This document shows, in pieces, positions 1-32,633 of a stretch of 32,633 nucleotides of DNA. Made by a program: the position numbers and the translations under genes. How positions within the stretch are numbered: position 1 is the first letter of the stretch; the number at the start of each line of letters is the position of its first letter. This stretch comes from a virus, in IMG/VR virus record IMGVR_UViG_3300032285_002350, positions 1-32,633 of that record; one strand, given 5' to 3'. The notes beneath the pieces are model-generated. The model searched no databases. It had not been told where the DNA came from and saw nothing but the letters and a program-made list of their open reading frames with translations.

Positions 1-59
1 CTTCCACTAGAACCTGAAGATCCGTTTGCTCCGCTGCTTCCACTAGAACCTGAAGATCC
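1..59. repeat. Direct terminal identity, left copy
   Basis: These 59 bases are identical to the last 59 bases of the window (32575-32633). They lie inside the Gly-Ser-Ser coding array. The reading frame is preserved when the copies are collapsed, because 32574 is divisible by three. An exact end overlap of this kind usually marks a circular or circularly permuted molecule. Because the sequence is itself repetitive, a collapsed array is also possible. Confidence 0.85.
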
Positions 60-293
60 GTTTGCTCCGTTTGTTCCGCTGCTTCCACTAGAACCTGAAG
101 ATCCTGACGAACCTGAAGATCCTGATTGACCACTAGAACCCGAAGATCCGTTTACTCCACTGCTTCCACTAGAACCTGAAGATCCGTTTGCTCCGCTGCT
201 TCCACTAGAACCTGAAGATCCTGACGAACCTGAAGATCCGTTTACTCCGCTGCTTCCACTAGAACCTGAAGATCCTGACGAACCTGAAGATCC
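1..293 (-). repeat. Collagen-like Gly-Ser-Ser coding repeat, left part
   Basis: Near-identical units of the type CTAGAACCTGAAGATCC alternate with short linkers (TGACGAA, GTTTGCTCC, TGATTGACC). On the minus strand they encode GSS triplets with GQSG, GANG or GVNG breaks. Conservation at the nucleotide level, not only the protein level, points to recent expansion by slippage or recombination. The array continues at 32310-32633, and a shorter version lies in the other fibre gene near 2430-2545. Confidence 0.9.
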
Positions 294-446
294 GAATATT
301 ACTATTTCTCCGCTATGTGAAATTGCTTTCAGAACATTGTCCTGAGAATATAAACTCACATAACCAAAATCTGGTGTTGCTGGTGTTGTTGTGCTTTGAC
401 CGAATTGTATTTCGCCTTCGCCTTGTAGTTTTAATTTACCTGACAT
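1..446 (-). CDS. Large repeat-rich tail fibre (fibre 2), N-terminal part, runs off the left end
   Basis: This is the first part of a fibre gene that starts with ATG at 446, preceded by an A-rich leader, and leaves the window at base 1. The N-terminal ~50 residues (MSGKLKLQGEGE...) resemble the start of the paralogous fibre at 1011-2792 and probably anchor the protein to the virion. From about residue 51 it becomes a collagen-like Gly-Ser-Ser array with GANG, GVNG and GQSG interruptions. Collapsing the 59-bp identity of the two window ends makes this frame run directly into the open frame at 32633-30384, giving one gene of 879 codons (878 aa). It lies 4 bp after the stop of the 186-aa gene, in the same transcript. 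A virion-surface adhesin role is inferred from architecture. Confidence 0.8.
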   Translation of the reverse strand, partial: MSGKLKLQGEGEIQFGQSTTTPATPDFGYVSLYSQDNVLKAISHSGEIVIFGSSGSSGSSGSSGSSGVNGSSGSSGSSGSSGSSGANGSSGSSGSSGVNGSSGSSGQSGSSGSSGSSGSSGSSGTNGANGSSGSSGSSGANGSSGSSG

Positions 447-3541: not shown

Positions 3542-4501
3542 TTAAGCTATTGTTGAGATAAATTGGTTTGCAAGTGCTGCAGTACCCATTCTGAATGCTG
3601 CTAAGAACTTCACATTATCTTGAGAAGGATCGTAGTAGAATCTGAATTTATCTTGATCGTCCATTAAACCAGTTCCAAAGAATGCATATTTCTTAGGTCC
3701 TAAGATACATGCTGATTTACCAGATGGATCAACTAAACCAGGAGCTGCAAACACTTTAATGTTTGTACCAGGCCAGATGAATGAATTCTCTGGAGATCCA
3801 GTCACGTTATCGATGTTTGGATATTGTAACAAGATTGAGTTACCTTTTCCTTGTAAAGCTTGAGTTAATACTGAGAATGTTTTGTAAGAAACATAAGCGA
3901 TTAAATCATCTTCTTGTAATACTGCTGGGTTTGCTGCTGCTAAAGCATCAACTACTGCCCAGAAGTTTGCATAAGCTGTAGAAGCTGTCCAAGTTGTAGC
4001 AACGCTAGTTGCAGAAATTGCACCTGCAGCTACTGATGTTTGATAAAGTAAACCATCTAATGTGTTACCGTCACCAGCCCAAACTGTTTGCTCGATGTAC
4101 TTGTTGATGTACTTCACTTTCAAATCGCCAATTGCTTGTTCGAATGGAACAGTCTCTTGGTAACCAGAAGCAGACATTTGAGAAGATAACCAGTATTGTC
4201 TTAGTTCGTTAGGACATAAAGCTTCTTTAAGCATTTTAGTCGCAACAACTAAATTTTGTTGTGTGAAAACTGTAGAGTTTCCTGTAGCACCTCCAGGACC
4301 TGTTTGAGCATCTCCGAATCCGCAAGCGTAATCGATAATGTAAGGAACAGTACCTAAGATGTTGATTGCTGTTGTACCAGCAGTTAACCCAATTCTTTGA
4401 GTTAAGTTTTGTACGGTTTGTGGTTTTAATACCGCTCTAGATACAAGGTCAGTTGATAACTGGTCAGTATAAACGGATAAACCTGAAAGATTAAATGACA
4501 T
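3542..4501 (-). CDS. Major capsid protein
   Basis: A 319-aa protein directly downstream of the prohead protease and scaffold genes, the usual place of the major capsid protein. It has no signal peptide. The N-terminal half carries a Gly/Thr-rich loop (GPGGATGNSTVFTQQNL), and the C-terminal part (residues ~255-319) has the ILGPKKYAFFGTGLMDDQDKFRFYYDPSQ region followed by a hydrophobic FLAAFRMGTAAL segment, as in HK97-fold capsid proteins of Bacteroidota phages. The start is ATG with an A-rich, SD-less leader (AAAAAAATAAAATAACTAAAG). The gap to the scaffold gene is 14 bp. The identification rests on gene order and general features rather than one diagnostic motif. Confidence 0.8.
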   Translation of the reverse strand: MSFNLSGLSVYTDQLSTDLVSRAVLKPQTVQNLTQRIGLTAGTTAINILGTVPYIIDYACGFGDAQTGPGGATGNSTVFTQQNLVVATKMLKEALCPNELRQYWLSSQMSASGYQETVPFEQAIGDLKVKYINKYIEQTVWAGDGNTLDGLLYQTSVAAGAISATSVATTWTASTAYANFWAVVDALAAANPAVLQEDDLIAYVSYKTFSVLTQALQGKGNSILLQYPNIDNVTGSPENSFIWPGTNIKVFAAPGLVDPSGKSACILGPKKYAFFGTGLMDDQDKFRFYYDPSQDNVKFLAAFRMGTAALANQFISTIA

Positions 4502-5228: not shown

Positions 5229-6302
5229 TTATGAATTAAGAATGCGCATGATTTGCTCAAGTGCTTTCTTTTCGTCTTGTATTTTATCGTAATCTTGTTT
5301 GTCTATAAAATTACCTTCTATAGAAAATCCTTTATACTTACCAGCTTTTACTTCTGCCCAAACTTTAGGATCTGTCACTTTCATTTTAACCATCCAAGTT
5401 CCTGCTGGTACATCTAAATGATAAACAGTATTTGCTTTATCAGTCTTAGGATCTTCAACTAACCAAGATTCGAAAACATAACTGCCACCTGACACGTTAT
5501 CATTATGATCTAAATTCGTTTCACGATTTCTCATCTCAGCCATAAACTTCTGCTGAATACCTGCTATAGTATCTTTAGAGAATTTTACGTAGTACGGGTT
5601 GCCATCTTCGTCTTTCCTGAAAATTTCTAAATCGGGTATCATCGCCGCGCCTACTAGTATTTGCTGATCTTTCTCTACTGCGAATGTTATTTTATCATTC
5701 TTAGCAGACGAAAATGTGGATCTTTTTTCAACTTTACGAAGTTTTTTAGCCTTAATTGGAACGCAATTAGGCACCATTCTACCGTTTAATTCCTTCAATC
5801 CGTAAGCTTCGTACCCTTCATCGCAAGCATCTGCAAGATCTTTATCGTCTGCCATCTTAGTTTTTTTCTTTTTTGGCGCTTGTTCGATGTACGGGGGTAA
5901 ACCTGATGGATCAAAATCAAATTTTTCATCTCCCATGTTCCATCTAATCCATCCGCAAAGTGCATTTGCATTTTCTTCTGCAAGTCCACGTGCTTTTGCA
6001 TCAGCAATACACTGATCCCAAGGATAATCGGCAAACTTTTGTTTAGAATGTTTTTGTTCGTACATAGAAATGCACATTGCAACTGCTTGATCTTGATCTT
6101 TTCCTTCGTTAATCATAGCAGGAACACATCTTCCCATAAAATCTGATTGTGATTCTCCAGCTTTTGGATCTACAAACTTTTCATTACGCATGTAAATCCA
6201 GTATTTTTCCGTAGCTGGTTGATCTACTAAAGCAATTGCTGACACACCTGAATCAAATTCGTCTTCTAGAACTTTAAGCTCTATTACTTTTTTATTTTCC
6301 AT
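5229..6302 (-). CDS. Prohead maturation protease, S78_2 (XkdF-like) domain with N-terminal Cys modules
   Basis: A 357-aa protein. Residues ~215-332 match the XkdF-like serine protease domain: ILVGAAMIPDLEIF, NLDHND with the likely catalytic His266, VFESWLVED, GTWMVKMKVTDPKVW and GFSIEG with the likely nucleophile Ser327. It would cleave scaffold and capsid during prohead maturation. Before the protease lie three short Cys-bearing modules: ~51-79 (DFMGRCVPAMINEGKDQDQA), ~92-119 (DYPWDQCIADAKARG...LCGWIRW) and ~155-182 (ACDEGYEAYGL...VPNCVP). These resemble small modules found scattered in Bacteroidota phage head proteins. The gene overlaps the upstream gene by one base (TAATG). The order protease-scaffold-capsid supports the call. 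Confidence 0.8.
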   Translation of the reverse strand: MENKKVIELKVLEDEFDSGVSAIALVDQPATEKYWIYMRNEKFVDPKAGESQSDFMGRCVPAMINEGKDQDQAVAMCISMYEQKHSKQKFADYPWDQCIADAKARGLAEENANALCGWIRWNMGDEKFDFDPSGLPPYIEQAPKKKKTKMADDKDLADACDEGYEAYGLKELNGRMVPNCVPIKAKKLRKVEKRSTFSSAKNDKITFAVEKDQQILVGAAMIPDLEIFRKDEDGNPYYVKFSKDTIAGIQQKFMAEMRNRETNLDHNDNVSGGSYVFESWLVEDPKTDKANTVYHLDVPAGTWMVKMKVTDPKVWAEVKAGKYKGFSIEGNFIDKQDYDKIQDEKKALEQIMRILNS

Positions 6303-6685: not shown

Positions 6686-6713
6686 TATTAGAGTATGAAA
6701 ACTTATAAACGTG
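6686..6713 (-). promoter_or_regulatory. Late promoter-like motif, copy C
   Basis: On the minus strand: CACGTTT-N10-ATACTCTAATA, overlapping the last codons of the tape measure gene and ending 15 bp before the ATG at 6670, the same distance as copy A. It probably gives extra expression of the protease-scaffold-capsid block. Confidence 0.45.
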
Positions 6714-9279
6714 CCAAATTTGAGATCTTTTTATCTGCTTGTGCTTGGCTATAAACGTCTGAAGCTACCACATATGTTTTAATAATTTGAGGTTGTTGGT
6801 TTTGATTTTGGTTAGCAAGTACATCTTTTAAATCATCCATATTTGGTAATTGACCACCAGCTGCGTATCTTGCGTTTCCTGCTGCATTAATTGCGCTTAG
6901 CACTGGTAAAAATGATTGTGTAGATCTTTTATTGATTACAAATTCACCGCCTTCTAATTCACCGTATGAAGTTTTAATTCCGCCTTCGTCATGTGAACTA
7001 CCAAATAATAAACCACCAGTTGCAAACTTACTTGCTGAGGCTTTTGTTTCTGCAACACCTGCACTCATATCTGGTTTTTCAGGAACTGGAGTAGATGTAA
7101 TTTGTTGTACTGCTTTCAAACCAGTTGCAACAGCCAATGCTGCTGCAATACCACCAAGTGCAGGACCAACAATTGGAATACCAGCTAAAGATTTATAAGC
7201 TGCAATTGCTGATTGATAAGTATTAATCGTTGTAGAAGCAATCGCTGCTGCTTTACCAGCTACTGTGTCTTTACCTAAAAGTTCTGCTGCTTGATTTAAA
7301 GCATTTGCACCAGCTGCAAGAGCTTGTGCTTTATATTGTTGTTCGTCTTTGGTAATTGCTTTATTTGCATTTGCATTTTTCTCGTTGAACTTAGTTCTGT
7401 TCTCTTCGATTTTTTTAATTGCATCTGCATTACCATTAGCAGCTTTAACTTGCTGATCAAAGTTTGCATTTACTTCTTTAGAAGTTTTAGCAAGAATTGC
7501 TTTTTCTGCTGCAAATCTTCTAACTCCTCTAGCTTGTGCTTTATTTAATTCTTCTTCACCTGCTTTTTGTAATCTAGAATTTAATTGTACAGCAGCTATT
7601 TCTGCATCTTTAGCAAGCTGTTTATTTCTATCAACTGCATCTTTAACTATTAAAGCACTTGTTGAACGTTTATTAGCAAGTAACTGATCATCATATTTTT
7701 GTTCGATTGCTAACTTCTGTTTTGCATATTCAGTTGGATCTAATTGTTTTTCTTTTTCTTTAAGAATTCTAATCTCTTCCGCTTTATTATCTTCTAAAGA
7801 TTTTTTAGATTTTTCTAAAAAATCTTGTTCTGCAGCAAAACGTTTATCTCTTGCTTGTTCTTCAGTAATTAATCCTTTAGAAAGTGCAATTTCAATATCA
7901 TCTAATTCTTTTTGTCTTGCATCTTGTAAAGTATTAGATAATTTTTTAGCTCCGTCTGCTGCAATTTTATTCTTAGCATCTACTTCTTTTTGCGCATCGT
8001 CAGAAATCTTTTTTAAATCATTCTTAGCTTCGTCTTCTCTATCTTTTTTATCTTTAGCACGAATAGCATCTATTTCTGCTTTAGATTTTTTTTCGCCTTT
8101 AAGCTGTATTTGTAATTTTTCTTCCTGTAATTTTTCTATGACTTTAATATCAGAATTGGCTTTATTCTTTTCCAATTCGATCATTGCATCTAATTCCTTT
8201 TCCCTTGCTGCTCTTCTATTATCTGCTGCTGTTTTTGCTTTATCGTCTTTTTCTTTTTGTGCAGCTTCTGCTTCTTTATCTAATCCTCTAATTGCTGTGT
8301 CAGTCTTTTTAGAAATTTTAGCTTGTTGTGCTGCAATATCTTCTGCAACTGCAATTGATTGATAAAGTGCGTCAGATTTTTCTCTATTTAAACCTTTAAT
8401 ATTTTGAATAGTATCTGCAAAGTTTTCTAATTCTTGTGCGTTTGCAGTCTTAAGAGATTCAATTCTTTTTTCATCTAAGCCTAAAGAAATTGCTAATTCT
8501 ACTGCTTGATTTTTTGCTTTTTCTGTTGCACGTGTTTTACCTTTTTCTGCTATATCATCTTCGATCTTAGCAGCTTCTTGTAATGCTTTTTTTCTTTCCG
8601 CAATTGGTTTATTTGCGTCTGCTGCTGCATCTCTTGCTTCTGCAAGTTTTGCATTTGCTTTAGAAATTCCTAATTCGTATTGTGCTTGTGTGTCTTTTAA
8701 TCTATCGTATTCTTCTGCTACTTTTCCTAATTGATCACCTAAATCTTTAGATCCACCAACTAATCCTGAAAAGAAGTTGGCTACTTTCTCTGCACCTGTT
8801 GCTATTGCTTCTAAAGTGGCTGAAATTGGCGGCAAAATGAAATTTGCAAGTTTTTCCATTACCCCAGAAAAGATGCTTGTAATCTTCTCTAATGGATCCA
8901 ATACGCCTTCCATCTTAGAAAACTTTTCAATCAATTGTGTAACAATTGTAACTAGTAATCCAATGGCTGACGTTTTAAACGCCATATCTAAGTTGCTAAA
9001 AACTTCTTGAGCACCTTTAATAGATTGTCCAAACGTTCCTACAATTCCAGGAGCTTGTGCAATATTTTCTAACCAACCTTGAGTACTTTGTTTAGTTTTT
9101 GTATAAGCACCTTGTAAACCTTCAAGATCTTTTTGTGTCTGTTTAAACTCTTTCGAACCAAACTCAGCATTAGCAAGCTGTTTTTTCAACTCGCCAATCT
9201 TGTCTTCAACTTGACTGAAAGATTTAAGTGTCGTGTCTACACCGTTAATCTTAATATTGATGTCTAAATTTTTAGCCAT
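6703..9279 (-). CDS. Tape measure protein
   Basis: An 858-aa protein that sets tail length and sits in the tail lumen. Residues ~20-60 are coiled coil, and ~80-175 are hydrophobic (KTSAIGLLVTIVTQLIEKF, LANFILPPISATLEAIATGA). A very long Lys/Glu/Ala coiled coil follows (~185-640). Next comes an Ala/Gly-rich hydrophobic region (~640-730, IPIVGPALGGIAAALAVATG). The C terminus has the hallmark GGLLFGSSHDEGGIK, GELEGGEFVINKRST pattern of tape measure proteins. By the rule of ~0.15 nm per residue the tail would be near 130 nm, which is an inference. It lies 14 bp after the upstream gene. Its position before, not after, the head genes is unusual. Confidence 0.9.
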   Translation of the reverse strand: MAKNLDINIKINGVDTTLKSFSQVEDKIGELKKQLANAEFGSKEFKQTQKDLEGLQGAYTKTKQSTQGWLENIAQAPGIVGTFGQSIKGAQEVFSNLDMAFKTSAIGLLVTIVTQLIEKFSKMEGVLDPLEKITSIFSGVMEKLANFILPPISATLEAIATGAEKVANFFSGLVGGSKDLGDQLGKVAEEYDRLKDTQAQYELGISKANAKLAEARDAAADANKPIAERKKALQEAAKIEDDIAEKGKTRATEKAKNQAVELAISLGLDEKRIESLKTANAQELENFADTIQNIKGLNREKSDALYQSIAVAEDIAAQQAKISKKTDTAIRGLDKEAEAAQKEKDDKAKTAADNRRAAREKELDAMIELEKNKANSDIKVIEKLQEEKLQIQLKGEKKSKAEIDAIRAKDKKDREDEAKNDLKKISDDAQKEVDAKNKIAADGAKKLSNTLQDARQKELDDIEIALSKGLITEEQARDKRFAAEQDFLEKSKKSLEDNKAEEIRILKEKEKQLDPTEYAKQKLAIEQKYDDQLLANKRSTSALIVKDAVDRNKQLAKDAEIAAVQLNSRLQKAGEEELNKAQARGVRRFAAEKAILAKTSKEVNANFDQQVKAANGNADAIKKIEENRTKFNEKNANANKAITKDEQQYKAQALAAGANALNQAAELLGKDTVAGKAAAIASTTINTYQSAIAAYKSLAGIPIVGPALGGIAAALAVATGLKAVQQITSTPVPEKPDMSAGVAETKASASKFATGGLLFGSSHDEGGIKTSYGELEGGEFVINKRSTQSFLPVLSAINAAGNARYAAGGQLPNMDDLKDVLANQNQNQQPQIIKTYVVASDVYSQAQADKKISNLARL

Positions 9280-14526: not shown

Positions 14527-16167
14527 TTATACTATTTGCATTGAGCGATCTACTGCTGTTTCTATTGTGAAAGTAACTGTGTAAACTTTTACTTGCTTAA
14601 TTGTTTTAACAGTGTAATTTGTTTCTTTAATTGTACACGTATAAGGAAAATCTACTTCTCCGATATAAGCCCAAACTTGTGGTGATTGTGCTGCATCTTT
14701 TAAGAAAGAGACTTCATCTTGTGTTAACCAGTTAGTTGTAATTTTCCAAGAATTTGTAACAACTTTATTGTATTGTTTATCTCCACCATGTAACCAGTTT
14801 TGTGTCTGATCTGCACCTGCATCTGATTTAATAACCGGTGTAGAATTTGACCAAAGCACTTCTGACTGATACCATTCTTTTTGGGTCGAACTAATTGATT
14901 GTTCTGCAAACATTGTAAAGTTGTAATAGTCTCTACCGCCTTGAGTATTTAACCATGCTAAACGAACTCTTGGATAAAGATAACTTGTACAATCTTCTGT
15001 AATATTAATTGTGACTAATTCTGATAAAGGAACTGAAGGCGATCCTGTATAATTACAAGAACCGTCAATTGTCATGTTTGCAAATAATTGAACTGTGTAA
15101 GAAGTAGGTACTTGACTAAGTCCTGAAAAAATTCCCATTTCATCTAAATCTTTAGGACCAACTCTTAATGAAATTAATTCAGTATTATCTGAATTTGAAA
15201 ATACTGAAATTTGACTACCGCAAGTTTGACGAGGATTACCACCATAAAAAACGTCAGTTGGAACTGTTTGATAATTAGGCATTGCTATATGCCCAATGTT
15301 ATTTCCAGCTGAATCATAAAAATTAAAATAAGCAACTAATGGTGAACTTGCTTGTAAATATGGATATTGTCCTCCTGAATAATAATATTGATAAACAGGA
15401 TTTCGATTAATAAAACTTAAACTGTAACGATCATAAATGTAATCATAAACAGAAATATTTAAACTTGGTGAAGCTGAACTTGTTTGCCAATTACCTGTTG
15501 CATCATTTGTACGTGGATAAGCACTTAAGAATTTTCCTAAACCACCAACTGTAGATTGTGTGTACAAACCTGGATTTTTTAGAATGTATGGAGCAACATC
15601 TCCAAATAGACCATAATAATCTGTTCCAGAAGTATTCTGAATTGCTAAAGTTTGTTGTTGTTCTGCCCAATCCATTGTATAAGGAAGAGCAATCACAGGA
15701 ACATATTCTGATCCTTGCGAAGATATTGTTGGTTGAGTTTGTGCATTAACATAACCTTGTGCGCCTACACGGAAATTTGGTTCTCCTTCAACGTCTGCAG
15801 TTCCTGTATAAATTCTTAATGTTGGATCTGCTAACGTTGCATACTCTTCTCCAATAATTAAATAGACAGAACAGATTGCATCATATCCAGTTTTATAAGG
15901 TTGACTTGGACTAACACCAACTTCATTTGCAAATCTTCCAACGTTCAAATAACTTTGCACAATCAAGCTAACATCTAACATACCAGCATTAGCTGGATTT
16001 GGACGTTGCTTAATTCTATTCACTTTTACACTATCTACATAAATGTCAAACACGTATTTGAAATCTATGTAAGTCGTATTTCCAGCATGATCTGAGGTGA
16101 CAGACCAAATCACTGGATTGTATGCTGGTGAATAAAATTTAGGTCTAAAGTTTACACCTGTAATCAT
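14527..16167 (-). CDS. Tail protein, probable distal-tail/tip component
   Basis: A 546-aa, beta-rich and aromatic protein without signal peptide or membrane segment. The N terminus (NFRPKFYSPAYNPVIWSV) and C terminus (ITTNWLTQDEVSFLKDAAQS, then VWAYIGEVDFPYTCTIKETN) look like Bacteroidota phage tail proteins located before the large tip protein. The C-terminal part resembles the strand-rich ring domain of distal tail proteins, though this is only suggested. Its ATG overlaps the TGA that ends the -1 frame of the upstream chaperone (ATGA), and its stop is 1 bp from the next start. The tight coupling supports a conserved tail operon. Confidence 0.6.
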   Translation of the reverse strand: MITGVNFRPKFYSPAYNPVIWSVTSDHAGNTTYIDFKYVFDIYVDSVKVNRIKQRPNPANAGMLDVSLIVQSYLNVGRFANEVGVSPSQPYKTGYDAICSVYLIIGEEYATLADPTLRIYTGTADVEGEPNFRVGAQGYVNAQTQPTISSQGSEYVPVIALPYTMDWAEQQQTLAIQNTSGTDYYGLFGDVAPYILKNPGLYTQSTVGGLGKFLSAYPRTNDATGNWQTSSASPSLNISVYDYIYDRYSLSFINRNPVYQYYYSGGQYPYLQASSPLVAYFNFYDSAGNNIGHIAMPNYQTVPTDVFYGGNPRQTCGSQISVFSNSDNTELISLRVGPKDLDEMGIFSGLSQVPTSYTVQLFANMTIDGSCNYTGSPSVPLSELVTINITEDCTSYLYPRVRLAWLNTQGGRDYYNFTMFAEQSISSTQKEWYQSEVLWSNSTPVIKSDAGADQTQNWLHGGDKQYNKVVTNSWKITTNWLTQDEVSFLKDAAQSPQVWAYIGEVDFPYTCTIKETNYTVKTIKQVKVYTVTFTIETAVDRSMQIV

Positions 16168-16957
16168 CTTATGCTGTTATATTTTTGAACCATTTTTTGA
16201 TGTTCCAATTCTGCTTTGCGGTTTTCGTCATGCTGCCAGGCAAGGTAGTTAAAGGATTCTCTGAGACCAAGTTTTGAAGCTCTTGCGATGTCAAGAGGAT
16301 TTTGTCTAGCGAGTGTGAGGAGAGTGAGCCACCATCCTCTTGCAATGTTTGCAACAACTGGTTTGTCTTCTTGATTATCCTCTTCGTCTTTTGATCCGAA
16401 GAGATTGACATAGCTTTTAAAGATGCTTGTGCGGAATGCAAAAAAAAACCTGAAACAGATTTTGCTAATTCAACTGGAGCGTTTAGAAAAAATTCTGAAC
16501 GATGTTTAAATCCTTCGTAATCGTAATCTCCGATTTTATATTTACCGTGAGATTCTCCAATAATTGGACGATATAAAATTGCAAGCATTTCATGCAATCT
16601 ATCATCTGCATTGTTCGAATTAACTATGACATCTAAATCTCCAAACTCACCAATAGTCATTTGATCGAAATCTGCTAGACCATATTCTATGCCATCCATT
16701 TCAAAACGGAAAGTCATTTTATCTGATTGATTAAATGCACGATTAATAATCAGATTTAGATTGAAAGAGATAATTCCCCATTGATCGACTTTAACTTGTT
16801 TTAAAGTTTCTACCGGACAACCTGAAAGTGCTGATACGATTTCAAATTCTGCTTCTGAACCACCTAATAATAAAGCAGTTCTAATGCTATAGTAGTCTTT
16901 AATTTTAATCGGTTCGATTTTATAGGTTTCTCCTTTAACTGTAAATTCAATATTCAT
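16164..16957 (-). CDS. Tail assembly chaperone with probable -1 frameshift at a T9 tract
   Basis: The zero frame (16957 to 16169) encodes 262 aa. Its first ~172 residues look genuine: FTVKGETYKIEPIKIKDYYS, then MTIGEFGDLDVIV, then HEMLAILYRPI. At 16448-16440 the minus strand has GG-T9-G. After this tract the zero frame turns into Ser/Lys/Thr-rich sequence. The -1 frame instead reads VNLFGSKDEEDNQEDKPVV, GWWLTLLTLARQNPLDIA, NYLAWQHDENRKAELE and stops at TGA (16166-16164), overlapping the ATG of the next gene. A 172+92-residue fusion of ~264 aa is therefore the likely functional product. Such frameshifts are known in tail assembly chaperones, which lie upstream of the tape measure and coat it. 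A lost T in the assembly would look the same. Confidence 0.7.
16440..16448 (-). promoter_or_regulatory. T9 slippery tract, probable -1 frameshift or transcriptional slippage site
   Basis: Nine T on the minus strand cover GGT TTT TTT TTG in the zero frame. Moving back one base, or adding one U by polymerase slippage, joins the plausible upstream domain to the plausible -1 frame domain. Removing one T instead would lead to a stop within a few codons. Confidence 0.65.
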
Positions 16958-16958
16958 A

Positions 16959-17363
16959 TTATTGTGATCTGTTTTCTATTTCTTCTTGTAGTGCTTCTTC
17001 TATAGCTCGTTCCAATTCGTCCTGAGCTTGCTCCCAAACTGTTGTTGAGAAGTTCATCCAATATCTTGGTTTGATTCCTCCTTTGCCTTTACCAGGTTTT
17101 GGATCCCATTTTTTAGCGTAGAGATTATCATACGCCACTGATTCATCTTCATCAGACATTGGATCTCGTTCACTCCCAGTACCACGATACAAATAAATTC
17201 CATATTTTGCTCCAATTTGAATACTAATTCCGTCATTACCGTCTGGCACCACTTGAATTGAATCTCTTAAAGCTCCAGTTCTTTTAGGAGCTTGATTTTG
17301 TAAGATAGATTCTAGTTCTCTACAAATCTTATTCAGTGCCTCTGATAAATCTAGTTCTGCCAT
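16959..17363 (-). CDS. HK97 gp10-like neck/tail-completion protein
   Basis: A 134-aa protein with the family's typical N-terminal helix and loop ILQNQAPKRTGALRDSI (residues ~20-36), then a strand-rich part (IQIGAKYGIYLYRGTG) and a C-terminal segment GIKPRYWMNFSTTVWEQ ending in a helix rich in Glu. Members of this family connect head and tail in siphoviruses. Length fits the family (about 110-150 aa). The ATG overlaps the upstream stop by one base (TAATG), and the next gene begins 1 bp after its stop. Confidence 0.75.
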   Translation of the reverse strand: MAELDLSEALNKICRELESILQNQAPKRTGALRDSIQVVPDGNDGISIQIGAKYGIYLYRGTGSERDPMSDEDESVAYDNLYAKKWDPKPGKGKGGIKPRYWMNFSTTVWEQAQDELERAIEEALQEEIENRSQ

Positions 17364-18169: not shown

Positions 18170-18860
18170 TATAGTAATCTTAAGTTACGCTCATAACGAG
18201 CGCCTAGAAAGGGATACGGATAGATGTTTAACCACTCTGTTCGCATCCGAAAAGAACGCCAAAGACTTATTTATGGTCTATGTCGTGGAATCAGAGCCTG
18301 ACGTGAATTGGAATCACTATCCCAACACTCTAACCCTGATTCCCGACCAACCATATGGCTATCACAAGTTCATGAACTATGGTAGGAGTGCAGGCAGCAG
18401 AGAATTCGTTTGTCTATGCAATTCAGATCTACTATTTCACCCAGGATGGGCTACAGAAATGCTAAATGCAGCTAGTGCACACGAGGAAACTTTAAGTTTT
18501 TCCCCAATTTGCCCGCTAACCCAACCACAATATGGGATTAAACCATACACAGGATTACATTTTGGATACGATGTACGTAAGCACATTAGTGGTTGGTGCA
18601 TCTTTCAACGCCGTAGCATCTACTATCAGATCCACGATTTGGACGAAACGTTCACGCATTGGTTCTGTGATAACGATTATGCCTTAACATTATGGAAGGA
18701 AAAGATCCCTCATATGCTAGTAACCTCTAGTTTAGTCACCCATCATTCTAACAATTTAGGTGCAACTGCTTTAGAAACCCGTACAGAAGAAGAGCTAAAC
18801 ACGCTTACGCACGGGAATAGTCTGCTTTTTAAAGAAAAGTGGCAGAAATACTTTCCATAA
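18162..18860 (+). CDS. Family-2-type (GT-A) glycosyltransferase
   Basis: A 232-aa protein. The N terminus MIDIVILSYAHNERLERDTD is the usual first strand of GT-A enzymes. VYVVESEPD follows, and YGYHKFMNYGRSAGSREFVC (about 65-84) leads into LCNSDLLFHPGWATEM, where Asn87-Ser88-Asp89 replaces the more common DxD metal motif. WFCDNDYALTLWKEKIPH (about 167-184) is the likely acceptor/catalytic region. It would move a sugar from an activated donor to an unknown acceptor, perhaps a host glycan, phage protein or DNA base. Its base composition is more GC-rich than the tail genes. It lacks a membrane segment. It overlaps the small basic gene by 8 bp. Confidence 0.8.
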   Translation: MIDIVILSYAHNERLERDTDRCLTTLFASEKNAKDLFMVYVVESEPDVNWNHYPNTLTLIPDQPYGYHKFMNYGRSAGSREFVCLCNSDLLFHPGWATEMLNAASAHEETLSFSPICPLTQPQYGIKPYTGLHFGYDVRKHISGWCIFQRRSIYYQIHDLDETFTHWFCDNDYALTLWKEKIPHMLVTSSLVTHHSNNLGATALETRTEEELNTLTHGNSLLFKEKWQKYFP

Positions 18861-23099: not shown

Positions 23100-23420
23100 C
23101 TAGATTATATTCAGTCTTTCTTTCTTCTTGGCTAGGTAAGCTTGGACATTATCTTTCCCTGTGCACCATCTCAAGTTTTGCACTCGATTGTCCGTTTTAT
23201 CTTCATTGATATGATCCACTTCGGGGAGATTCAATGGATTTGGTAAGAATGTTTCAGCTATTATTCTATGGGTGAATACTTTTGTGTTCTTTCCTTTCCA
23301 GGTTAAGTGTATTCTTGTATAGCCTTTCTTATGAAGTTCTTGTTTCAGAAATCTTTTCCAAGCTTTACCCCATACTGTTCCATCTGAATGTATTATGTAG
23401 TTTCCTATATCTTTAATCAT
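23100..23420 (-). CDS. HNH endonuclease
   Basis: A 106-aa protein with an HNH_3-type core: HRIIAETFLPNPLNLPEVDH (residues ~51-70) with the catalytic His of VDH, then INEDKTDNRVQNLRWCTGKD with the conserved Asn residues. The N-terminal part (IHSDGTVWGKAWKRF) looks like the short strand module that precedes HNH in phage homing enzymes. No metal-binding Cys pairs are seen. It overlaps the upstream HTH gene by 8 bp. A nicking enzyme in packaging (near terminase) and a free-standing homing endonuclease are both possible. Confidence 0.8.
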   Translation of the reverse strand: MIKDIGNYIIHSDGTVWGKAWKRFLKQELHKKGYTRIHLTWKGKNTKVFTHRIIAETFLPNPLNLPEVDHINEDKTDNRVQNLRWCTGKDNVQAYLAKKKERLNII

Positions 23421-26912: not shown

Positions 26913-27419
26913 TTATTTTACGCTTTTCCAAGTTATACCTTTAACACATGCATAAATTGTCCAAGGATGTACACCGTAGTATTCTGCTAGTTCTTTATAA
27001 GACATTGTCTTATGGTGACGCATCCATCTGATAGTTGCTACGTCTACTGCAGTTAATTTAGAATTAAACGAAGTTGGATCGTACTTACCTTCTGCTAGTC
27101 TGCGTTTCATGCGAGCATCTTGATTAGACCAGTAGAGGTTCTGGAGATCCGTATTCGCAATATTACCATCCTTAAAGCACACATCGATGTTCACAGAAGG
27201 ATTATCATTGGGAATGAATAATTGCGCAAGAATACGATGCAAATATCTTTTAGTCGACTGTGCATTTTTAGAGACTGTAAACATCTTATAAGGTGCATTG
27301 CTATAAGTTGTTGGTTCAATGTATCTCCAAGTCTTAGATGTCTTTAACCATCTGCGAATTCGTCCTTCGTTTGATACCTCGTACATTTCGTAATCGGGTA
27401 CTGATTTCCATACTTCCAT
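26913..27419 (-). CDS. NUMOD4 protein with degenerate HNH and C-terminal HTH
   Basis: A 168-aa protein from ATG 27419. It starts with a NUMOD4 module (EVWKSVPDYEMYEVSNEGRI), then an HNH-like region in which HRILAQLFIPND is kept but the catalytic VDH is replaced by DVC. This is followed by DGNIANTDLQNLYW. The C terminus is a helix-turn-helix (MSYKELAEYYGVHPWTIYAC). With the active-site His gone, it is probably no longer a nuclease but can still bind DNA. A possible TTG start at 27443 would add 8 residues and overlap the upstream gene. Its start lies 1 bp after the stop of the intact HNH gene. Confidence 0.75.
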   Translation of the reverse strand: MEVWKSVPDYEMYEVSNEGRIRRWLKTSKTWRYIEPTTYSNAPYKMFTVSKNAQSTKRYLHRILAQLFIPNDNPSVNIDVCFKDGNIANTDLQNLYWSNQDARMKRRLAEGKYDPTSFNSKLTAVDVATIRWMRHHKTMSYKELAEYYGVHPWTIYACVKGITWKSVK

Positions 27420-27420
27420 A

Positions 27421-27909
27421 TTATGAATTATATTTTTTAACAATTCTAAAACTCCATCCCGTAATTGTTTTATTACCGTTCTTTAAAGCATATTGAACTG
27501 ATCTTCTCCAATGAGAAGTCTTTTCTGCTGCTTCTCTTGTTCCGGAAGCAATTATTTTCTTACCAGTTTCGTGTTCGCATAGAATGTAATCAGATTGATC
27601 CTTTTGCACATTCTCTCTATGTTTAGTCCAAGCTAAATTCGTTGCTCTATTATCAGTCTTGATATTTGAAATGTGATCCACTTCTCGATATCCATGTGGA
27701 TTAGGTACAAATGCTTTAGCGACTAATGAATGCGCTGTGACCTGAGTTCGGTCTTTAAGCATATAACAAAGATAACCTCTGTTACTTGTTTTTGATTTTA
27801 GGATACGACCATCGATTGTGTCTATGACAAACGATTTTAATCGACCAAGGTTAGAGATTTGATAATCACCTTCATAACCTATAACATCTTTCCAGATTTC
27901 TTTTTCCAT
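27421..27909 (-). CDS. NUMOD4-HNH homing-type endonuclease
   Basis: A 162-aa protein from ATG 27909. It has NUMOD4 (EIWKDVIGYEGDYQISNLGR, ~4-23), then an HNH_3 core with all key residues: AHSLVAKAFVPNPHGYREVD-H and KTDNRATNLAWTKHRENV. A NUMOD1/HTH-like tail follows (GTREAAEKTSHWRRSVQYAL ... GWSFRIV). It is a typical free-standing phage homing endonuclease. It is the first gene of the early cluster and has a host-like promoter and the terminator of late unit 2 upstream. Confidence 0.85.
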   Translation of the reverse strand: MEKEIWKDVIGYEGDYQISNLGRLKSFVIDTIDGRILKSKTSNRGYLCYMLKDRTQVTAHSLVAKAFVPNPHGYREVDHISNIKTDNRATNLAWTKHRENVQKDQSDYILCEHETGKKIIASGTREAAEKTSHWRRSVQYALKNGNKTITGWSFRIVKKYNS

Positions 27910-27923
27910 TTTGTTTGTTTTAT

Positions 27924-27956
27924 CATTATATATCCCGGGCAACCGAAAGTTCCAAA
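27924..27956 (-). promoter_or_regulatory. Host-like promoter of the early cluster
   Basis: On the minus strand TTTG (27956-27953) is followed after 20 nt by TATATAATG (27932-27924), close to the Bacteroidota TTTG/TAnnTTTG arrangement, and the HNH gene starts 14 bp further on. The upstream box overlaps the T-run of the preceding terminator. Confidence 0.4.
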
Positions 27957-30383: not shown

Positions 30384-32633
30384 TTATAGTGTTGTATGTG
30401 ATACTTTTCTCCATGCTATTCCGTCGTAAAATACTGGACATGCAGTATCAGTTGCATATAACATCATACCTGCAACTGGTGAACTAATTGCAAGAATATT
30501 TGTTGAAGTATCTTTCTTAAGAATAAAAGGAGTGTAAACATAACCTGCTGTTGCACCATCAAATTTAAATCTAATATTACTTTGTCCATCTCCTAAATAA
30601 ACCTGATTGCTTCCTGTTGGAGAGAATATACCAGGATTTGCATTTTCATCAATATCGTTACCAATTATGACGTTGTAATTTCCGGTTGTGATACCACCAG
30701 TTGCATTTAAGAAAGATCCAATTTGTACGTTGCCTAATCCTGAACTAATTAATAAACCAGAATTATTTCCGATTGCTGTATTAGAAGATCCTGTTGTTAA
30801 TCCGTTTAAAGCTGCTTGACCAATACCAACGTTATCATTAGAAGTAGGATCAGAAACTCCATTATTATGTCCAGCTCCTTGTCCTATAAATGTATTTCTA
30901 CTTGATGCTGTATAAGCTCCTGCACTATTACCTATGATAGTATTAGCTGCTCCAGTTGTATTTCTTAATAAAGCGCTACCACCAATTGCTAAACCAAAGT
31001 TTCCTGTTGATGCTTCTGCTGCTCTAGAACCAATAGCAACCATACCTGTAAAGCCTGCTGTTGCGCCTGCTGCTGACATAGCATTATAACCAATTGCTAT
31101 AAATCTATTTGAGGATGTAACGTTTTTAGCTGCGTTAAGACCGATAGCAACTGAACCAGTACCACCTGTTAATGAAACGGAAGCTGATGCTCCAATAGCT
31201 ACGTTACCTGCTCCAGTAGCAGCAAATAAAGCTTGATAACCAATTGCAGTATTACTTGCTCCGGTTACGTTTGTTGTTAATGCTTGATGACCAATTGCAG
31301 TATTATTTACTCCTGCTCTTACTGATTTTAAAGCTTGATAACCAACTGCTACAAATCCATCTGCAATATCACCAAAGTTAGCATTAACTGTTTGATATCC
31401 AATTGCTACACCTGTAAGGGTGTTTGAAGAAGTAGTTGCACCGATAGATCCATATCCAATTGCTACTGCTCCTGTTCCGTTGTTTCTATTGTTTGCTTGA
31501 TAACCAATTCCTACTGCTTGGTTACTTGCAGTTGCACCGCCGATTGAAGCTGAACCTACTGCAGTATTAAATGAACCTGTTAAGTTTGTTCCTAAACTAC
31601 CTTGACCTAAAGCAGTATTACCATTACCAAATGTATTTGATATTAAAGCACCAGCTCCTAAAGCAACATGACCAGATCCAGTTGTATTTGCTGCTGCTGC
31701 AGATGCACCAATAGCTACGTTACCATTACCAAATGTGTTTGCGTATAAAGAGTTAACACCAATTGCTAAGTTATTAGCACCAGTTGCGTTAGTAAATGCT
31801 GCTTGATAACCTACTGCCACTGTACCAGTTGATGTGTTATTTTTAGCTGCTTCGTATCCGACTGCTACAACGTTTGCTGCTCCTTGTAATGTATTAGCAT
31901 TAACTCCTATTAAGGTATTATTAGATTGAGTGCTAATTGAAGATCCTGCTAACCAGCCAACTAAAGTATTATTATTTGCTGAAGTTGCTTGATAAGCTGT
32001 ACCAACTCCAACTGCTGTATTACTTGCTCCTGTTGTTAATGCACTTAATGAAAGTTCACCAACTGCTGTATTTTCTTGACCAGATAAAGATGCAGAAGCT
32101 AAAGCTGATGCACCTACTACTGTTGATCTATAAACTGAATTTGCTTTACCAACTCTTACTGCTCCCACAGAAAGTATTGGATCTACAAATGTTAAATTTG
32201 TTTGCGCGTTTGCTTCGCCTGATGTACTTGAACCTGTAATTACTCTAGTCGCTGCGTTATTGTTAATTGTTGCACCTGCACCTGTCGCACCTGTCGCACC
32301 TGTCGCACCTTGTGCTCCACTGCTTCCACTAGAACCTGAAGATCCTGATTGACCGCTAGAACCCGAAGATCCTGATTGACCGCTAGAACCTGAAGATCCT
32401 GCTGCTCCGCTTTGCCCACTGCTTCCACTAGAACCTGAAGATCCTGATTGACCACTAGAACCTGAAGATCCTGATTGACCACTAGAACCTGAAGATCCTG
32501 CTGCTCCGCTTTGTCCACTGCTTCCACTAGAACCTGAAGATCCTGACGAACCTGCTGCTCCGCTTTGTCCACTACTTCCACTAGAACCTGAAGATCCGTT
32601 TGCTCCGCTGCTTCCACTAGAACCTGAAGATCC
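30384..32633 (-). CDS. Large repeat-rich tail fibre (fibre 2), C-terminal part, enters from the right end
   Basis: The open frame enters at the right window end and stops with TAA at 30384. It continues the gene that starts at 446. It begins with the Gly-Ser-Ser array and a short Gly-Ala-Thr run, then AGATINNNAATRVITGSSTS, then about 28 NTAIGxxAL-type repeats (to ~30730), and closes with a unique domain (NQVYLGDGQSNIRFKFDGAT ... CPVFYDGIAWRKVSHTTL), probably the trimerising or receptor-binding tip. A GTG at 32168 lies inside the frame and is not the true start, since the frame is open far upstream and continues into the repeats. The portal-group genes follow. Confidence 0.85.
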   Translation of the reverse strand, partial: GSSGSSGSSGANGSSGSSGSSGQSGAAGSSGSSGSSGSSGQSGAAGSSGSSGQSGSSGSSGQSGSSGSSGSSGQSGAAGSSGSSGQSGSSGSSGQSGSSGSSGSSGAQGATGATGATGAGATINNNAATRVITGSSTSGEANAQTNLTFVDPILSVGAVRVGKANSVYRSTVVGASALASASLSGQENTAVGELSLSALTTGASNTAVGVGTAYQATSANNNTLVGWLAGSSISTQSNNTLIGVNANTLQGAANVVAVGYEAAKNNTSTGTVAVGYQAAFTNATGANNLAIGVNSLYANTFGNGNVAIGASAAAANTTGSGHVALGAGALISNTFGNGNTALGQGSLGTNLTGSFNTAVGSASIGGATASNQAVGIGYQANNRNNGTGAVAIGYGSIGATTSSNTLTGVAIGYQTVNANFGDIADGFVAVGYQALKSVRAGVNNTAIGHQALTTNVTGASNTAIGYQALFAATGAGNVAIGASASVSLTGGTGSVAIGLNAAKNVTSSNRFIAIGYNAMSAAGATAGFTGMVAIGSRAAEASTGNFGLAIGGSALLRNTTGAANTIIGNSAGAYTASSRNTFIGQGAGHNNGVSDPTSNDNVGIGQAALNGLTTGSSNTAIGNNSGLLISSGLGNVQIGSFLNATGGITTGNYNVIIGNDIDENANPGIFSPTGSNQVYLGDGQSNIRFKFDGATAGYVYTPFILKKDTSTNILAISSPVAGMMLYATDTACPVFYDGIAWRKVSHTTL
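30730..32150 (-). repeat. About 28 tandem ~51-bp adhesin-type repeats
   Basis: Units encode about 17 residues with the core N-x-A-I-G-x-x-A, as in fibre 1 but with more length variation. Clear at protein level and diverged in DNA. Confidence 0.8.
32310..32633 (-). repeat. Collagen-like Gly-Ser-Ser coding repeat, right part
   Basis: Near-identical units (CTAGAACCTGAAGATCC with TGATTGACC or TGCTGCTCC linkers, often 27 bp apart) encode GSSGSSGQSG-type sequence. It continues into bases 1-293. Repeats of this similarity are hard to assemble from short reads, so the copy number is uncertain. Confidence 0.9.
32575..32633. repeat. Direct terminal identity, right copy
   Basis: Identical to bases 1-59. 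It supports a circular or circularly permuted molecule of 32,574 bp, with fibre 2 reading through the join in frame. Confidence 0.85.

Follow-up and report, generated by a model that had tools for sequence, protein, structure and literature searches.

A conserved T9 run at the junction of two overlapping C-terminal reading frames in a putative tail assembly chaperone gene of aquatic phages

The window, i.e. the whole stretch of DNA analysed here (32,633 nucleotides, IMG/VR virus record IMGVR_UViG_3300032285_002350), includes a chaperone-like gene in the tail cluster, between the neck and tape measure genes. Three genes separate it from the tape measure gene, hence it is not directly upstream of the latter. 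The features of interest are all on the minus strand:

16959..17363, minus: preceding gene, HK97-gp10-like neck or tail completion protein (Pfam PF04883, E=5.4e-5; phrog_5, E=1.8e-9)
16449..16957, minus: N-terminal domain of about 170 aa shared by both predicted products, tail-assembly-chaperone-like (AlphaFold2, homologues, Pfam)
16440..16448, minus: T9, the predicted slip site (of 127 distinct homologous sites, 123 have T9 or T10 and a C-terminal domain in −1)
16164..16448, minus: −1 C-terminal domain, 94 codons from T9 plus stop, an acidic linker followed by a helical domain (ARGWWLTLLTLARQNPLDIARASKLGLRESFNYLAWQHDENRK)
16169..16448, minus: alternative C-terminal tail in the zero frame (92 codons and a stop), sharing its DNA with the −1 domain
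16164..16167, minus: ATGA overlap of the −1 stop and the start of the next gene
14527..16167, minus: next gene, 546 aa, a probable tail or baseplate protein and conserved neighbour, used to find relatives
6703..9279, minus: tape measure protein, which a chaperone would be expected to partner (phrog_3336, E=8.6e-10)

The 546-aa product of the next gene had no family match in Pfam or PHROGs. The tape measure gene at 6703-9279 precedes the genes for a protease and a probable major capsid protein (5229-6302 and 3542-4501), which is an unusual order for a siphophage.

The zero-frame ORF of the chaperone-like gene extends from 16957 to 16169 on the minus strand and encodes 262 aa, with ATG at 16957 and TAA at 16171-16169. 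Read from the letters of the window, the minus strand has GG at 16450-16449, T9 at 16448-16440 and GCA at 16439-16437, and the position of GG-T9-GCA at 16450-16437 given in an earlier sequence-only reading is thus exact to the base. The zero frame reads GGT TTT TTT TTG CAT at the run and continues into a tail that contains SVSGFFLHSAQASLK. Reading GGT TTT TTT TTT GCA instead leads into the −1 frame, and the junction peptide of the predicted fusion is SVSGFFFAFR. The −1 frame stays open for a further 91 codons past T9 and ends with TGA at 16166-16164; this stop and the ATG that opens the next gene (16167-16165) overlap as ATGA, as the same reading had noticed. The zero-frame stop lies 1 nt ahead of that ATG. 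Between T9 and the conserved part of the −1 frame, the window includes no ATG, GTG or TTG, and the first methionine is found near the C-terminus. The +1 frame from T9 closes after 9 codons in the window, no faster than expected by chance, and hence argues neither for nor against deletion of a nucleotide.

The gene had been proposed to encode a tail assembly chaperone. This is plausible from matches to Pfam, PHROGs and Foldseek targets that are weak but concordant. A location between the neck and tape measure genes counts towards this identity, and the distance from the latter gene counts against it. Pfam Phage_TAC_7, which covers chaperones E, 41 or 14, was matched weakly by 5/34 members (best E=4.5e-4); most members, the window protein included, had no match, and the domain here is about 170 aa. 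Matches to PHROG chaperone families were also weak (0.013 for a tail assembly chaperone). Foldseek related the N-terminal domain to annotated tail assembly chaperones (E=6e-3, prob 0.99). Fold searches of the PDB gave nothing significant, with which a known fold stays compatible, and the PDB sequence search was uninformative. In the AlphaFold2 model of the N-terminal domain, pLDDT is about 90 for residues 1-160; the C-terminal domain was modelled as small and helical (pLDDT 77), following the acidic linker. A family of unknown function, phrog_32199, is matched by 30/34 clade-1 proteins (best E=1.4e-13). It contains gp40 of the cultured phage P12024L (E=7e-124), and its profile is as long as the P12024L zero-frame product (175 aa) and has no functional name.

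Single-sequence searches with the two halves of the window protein found no relatives. The 546-aa neighbour (14527-16167) matched one contig, L002, and an alignment of the window and L002 neighbour proteins led to 79 more loci. In nearly all of this set, the gene upstream of the 546-aa-type neighbour includes an uninterrupted T run. Searches with alignments of the N-terminal and C-terminal domains added another ~160 loci, of which many lie on contigs from the earlier rounds, to give a total of ~250 loci. N-terminal domain homologues were present in about 234 of these. All loci were scored with profile HMMs of both domains, and the longest single-base run between the domains was taken. Only sites that were identical in both the run and the flanking sequence were merged, which left 127 distinct sites, not all of which are independent.

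The C-terminal domain lies in the −1 frame relative to the N-terminal domain at 110 sites with T9, 13 with T10 and one with T8. Among the remaining three sites, L061 (793-1584) has T10 and includes both domains in one ORF, the only such case among the 127, and is either a natural fusion or a sequencing error; L156 has T9 with a second shift further on, probably an indel; and L075 is a distant N-terminal match without the run and without the C-terminal domain. Among these sites, L061 is the only one joined without a slip (1/127), an arrangement that would have counted against a programmed shift, and the −1 relation is seen in 124/127. Two sites do not fit neatly with the best explanation given below. 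In the T8 site (L028, around 2764), the ninth T is replaced by C, a synonymous change in the −1 frame; either a run of eight is enough, or the shift at this site is ribosomal. In L029 (T10, around 5690-5715), the −1 frame meets TAA after four codons, and the −1 domain is intact beyond it. A tree of 55 N-terminal domains has two deep clades, and the phase of the run changes several times within one of them. The C-terminal domains of clades 1 and 2 are related by profile comparison (E=1.6e-9), and the N-terminal domains are homologous across the two clades as well. Through most of clade 1, either one frame or the other overlaps the next start at its end, and both may be kept open partly because they couple translation to the next gene.

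A search with the terminase pointed to the Nonlabens phages P12024L and P12024S, both cultured on a Nonlabens (Persicivirga) strain and both represented by complete genomes. In these phages, T9 lies inside gp40 and gp38, respectively, and the −1 frame is open for 83 codons. The end of this extension is annotated as a 55-aa hypothetical protein (gp41 and gp39) that starts at an internal ATG. The −1 extension of P12024L matches the clade-1 profile of the C-terminal domain (E=1.7e-7), and after the run 6/7 differences between the two phages affect the third position of −1 codons. The fusion peptide predicted for P12024L ends in FFLSFR, and its zero-frame peptide contains FFYHLGNDLGIYTQNSTPPQADSK. 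A programmed −1 shift at T9, as proposed, draws support from these two phages and from the conserved run and −1 domain at more than 120 sites. Extrapolating from P12024L and P12024S only, the uncultured relatives presumably also infect Bacteroidota. A T9 site of this type was not found in the cultured Bacteroidota phages 6H, B40-8 and P12002L, nor in the tail region of P2559S, and a scan of genome contigs gave no prophage relatives. Flavobacterium phage 11b (L086) has an A9 run at 18173-18181, at the end of gp38, from which the −1 frame stays open for 117 codons, spanning gp39 and reaching the tape-measure-like gp40. This resembles a chaperone frameshift, so far unannotated and on an A run, in what seems to be an unrelated family.

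Selection was assessed by counting substitutions between related pairs by codon position. In the clade-1 N-terminal domain, 28/12/59% of substitutions fall on codon positions 1/2/3, versus 37/26/37% on the −1 codon positions of the clade-1 overlap. In clade 2, the −1 positions past the zero-frame stop show 23/19/58%, as in single coding, versus 41/27/32% where the frames overlap, with the zero-frame third position being the most variable there. In the openness test, the −1 protein was kept while synonymous codons were reshuffled, and the open length of the zero frame was compared. The zero frame of the window is open for 92 codons versus a mean of 29.5 after reshuffling (p=0.0005), and that of 33 clade-1 homologues for 94 codons versus 25.6 expected; the reverse test in clade 1 gave 93.6 observed versus 13.2. 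Because of the substitution pattern and the openness tests, the zero-frame tail is regarded as a selected alternative C-terminus in clade 1; in clade 2 the same holds over about 50 codons. The −1 frame had been read as coding in place of the zero frame; the former part stands and the latter does not, as both frames are under selection. Comparison of the relatives thus demonstrates the run, the two frames and the selection on both, and since both frames are selected, the gene would make two proteins with one N-terminal domain and alternative C-termini.

The picture in the window could be produced by an error in sequencing or assembly if the true sequence were T10 in a single continuous ORF. The relative L061 has this arrangement, and Foldseek matched single proteins of 240-267 aa that cover both domains. 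However, 110 distinct sites have T9, the 13 sites with T10 still need a shift, T9 is found in both complete P12024 genomes, and signatures of dual coding are present. The missing base suggested earlier is refuted in this way, by comparison and not by reads, and an error retains almost no probability. The run could also be phase-variable, with replication slippage toggling individual phages between split (T9) and fused (T10) states, for which a homopolymer tract would be suitable and L061 would represent the fused state. Yet almost every T10 site retains the −1 relation, hence T10 is not the 'on' state, and both frames are selected together; this makes phase variation very unlikely. Nor is it at all probable that the locus consists of two separate genes, the −1 ORF having its own internal start and overlapping the other incidentally. 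The annotation of a separate 55-aa gene with an internal ATG in P12024L and P12024S agrees with such an arrangement, but the −1 frame of the window has no start codon ahead of its conserved part, and the conserved run would be left unexplained.

The shift itself may be made by the ribosome or by RNA polymerase. Frameshifted tail chaperones are textbook cases of ribosomal recoding. In a ribosomal mechanism, the mRNA would be unchanged and a programmed −1 frameshift would occur on U_UUU_UUU within U9, as in lambda G/GT. This heptamer is contained in T9 in every phase, the chaperone shifts covered by a review are ribosomal (PMC5009743), and U_UU.U_UU.U/C works as a −1 site in E. coli (PMC4066793). 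Several observations argue against it and in favour of slippage by the polymerase. As a ribosomal heptamer needs only seven Ts, the keeping of 9-10 in 123/127 sites points to the polymerase. The −1 phenylalanine codon formed by T7-T9 is TTT in 31/32 and TTC once, the synonymous C at the ninth T being found only in L028, while other conserved phenylalanine columns of the same proteins mix TTT and TTC (e.g. 15:19, 14:12 and 8:21). The run is found in all three codon phases among distinct homologous sites, and that its first T occurs at codon position 1, 2 or 3 also favours the polymerase. So does the lack of a conserved RNA structure or Shine-Dalgarno-like element flanking the run: no stem-loop stimulator was found just downstream (mean z −0.4 and +0.3 in pseudoknot-free models), and an upstream Shine-Dalgarno-like motif was present in 10/55, with no conserved stimulator. 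Some ribosomal frameshift sites work without a stimulator. No other slippery heptamer occurs in any homologue having both domains.

The avoidance of long A/T runs in the other ORFs of the same loci is a further reason to favour the polymerase. In 404 kb of other long ORFs, runs of at least nine Ts were found 0 times versus about 12 expected from codon shuffling, A9 once versus 22 expected, and A10 or longer 0 times versus 17 (the expectation for at least nine As is about 38). Such avoidance is a signature used to recognise slippage-prone lengths in bacterial genomes (PMC1088944), and it could here arise partly from mutation. The same study recognised slippage by an uninterrupted run of ~9 A/T conserved at an ORF junction in non-identical homologues, which is the arrangement found here. 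For E. coli RNA polymerase, slippage sets in at runs of 7 Ts, favours poly(T) over A and yields more insertions than deletions (PMC6260861), and slippage at 9 A/T is efficient (PMC5009743). From the run length, the phases, the absence of stimulators and the run avoidance, we infer slippage by RNA polymerase, mentioned earlier only as an aside, to be the better-supported mechanism. A purely ribosomal shift is rather unlikely, and the polymerase and ribosome may act together at the run. Among the open-access papers searched, none describes transcriptional slippage in a tail chaperone.

Thus, it is probable that a slip at T9, with RNA polymerase inserting one U, makes this a tail-chaperone gene with two C-termini. 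Ordinary reading would give the N-terminal domain with the zero-frame tail. In a fraction of transcripts, the host RNA polymerase would add one U while copying T9, and ordinary translation of the U10 mRNA would enter the −1 frame to give the N-terminal domain followed by the linker and the helical C-terminal domain. If the two proteins act like lambda gpG/gpGT (PMC5009743), the tape measure protein would be coated through the N-terminal domain, with the zero-frame product as the major chaperone and the −1 product as a minor form that brings in tail-tube subunits. On balance, we lean towards lineage-wide control of tail assembly by polymerase slippage at T9, in which two chaperones would share one N-terminal domain, carry overprinted and separately selected C-termini, and be made in a ratio set by transcription. 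As in lambda G/GT (PMC5009743), the gene lies in the tail cluster and encodes a small N-terminal protein to which the −1 product adds a C-terminal domain, both domains being conserved in distant relatives. Unlike lambda G/GT, which has a mixed heptamer, the site here is a homopolymer (T9/T10), the zero-frame product has a long selected tail, other genes intervene before the tape measure gene, and the mechanism is probably at the level of RNA polymerase. Slippage in Thermus dnaX, Shigella spa13 and mxiE, and IS elements similarly uses runs of ~9 A/T to give another C-terminus (PMC5009743, PMC1088944). Those systems differ from the present one, which is a phage tail gene, extends over a very wide range of phages and has both downstream frames coding.

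As judged from the comparison of homologous sites, the finding is real and the run is kept across a large group of little-known aquatic phages. If polymerase slippage is used, the mechanism would have changed while the outcome was kept, a parallel to dnaX, which differs in this way between E. coli and Thermus. With their overprinted tails, these genes would put about 90 codons to an unusual double use. The fusion escapes annotation pipelines, and part of it is called a separate hypothetical gene in P12024L and P12024S. With these phages in culture on a Nonlabens (Persicivirga) strain, the question can be put to a direct test.

Both ends of the window (3-446 and 30384-32633, minus strand) lie in ORFs with collagen-like GSSGSSG repeats. 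The record therefore probably breaks inside one repeat-rich fibre gene, which may mean a nearly complete genome of circular or circularly permuted form. The ORFs at 23100-23420, 26913-27443 and 27421-27942 resemble, by eye, HNH/NUMOD-type endonucleases.
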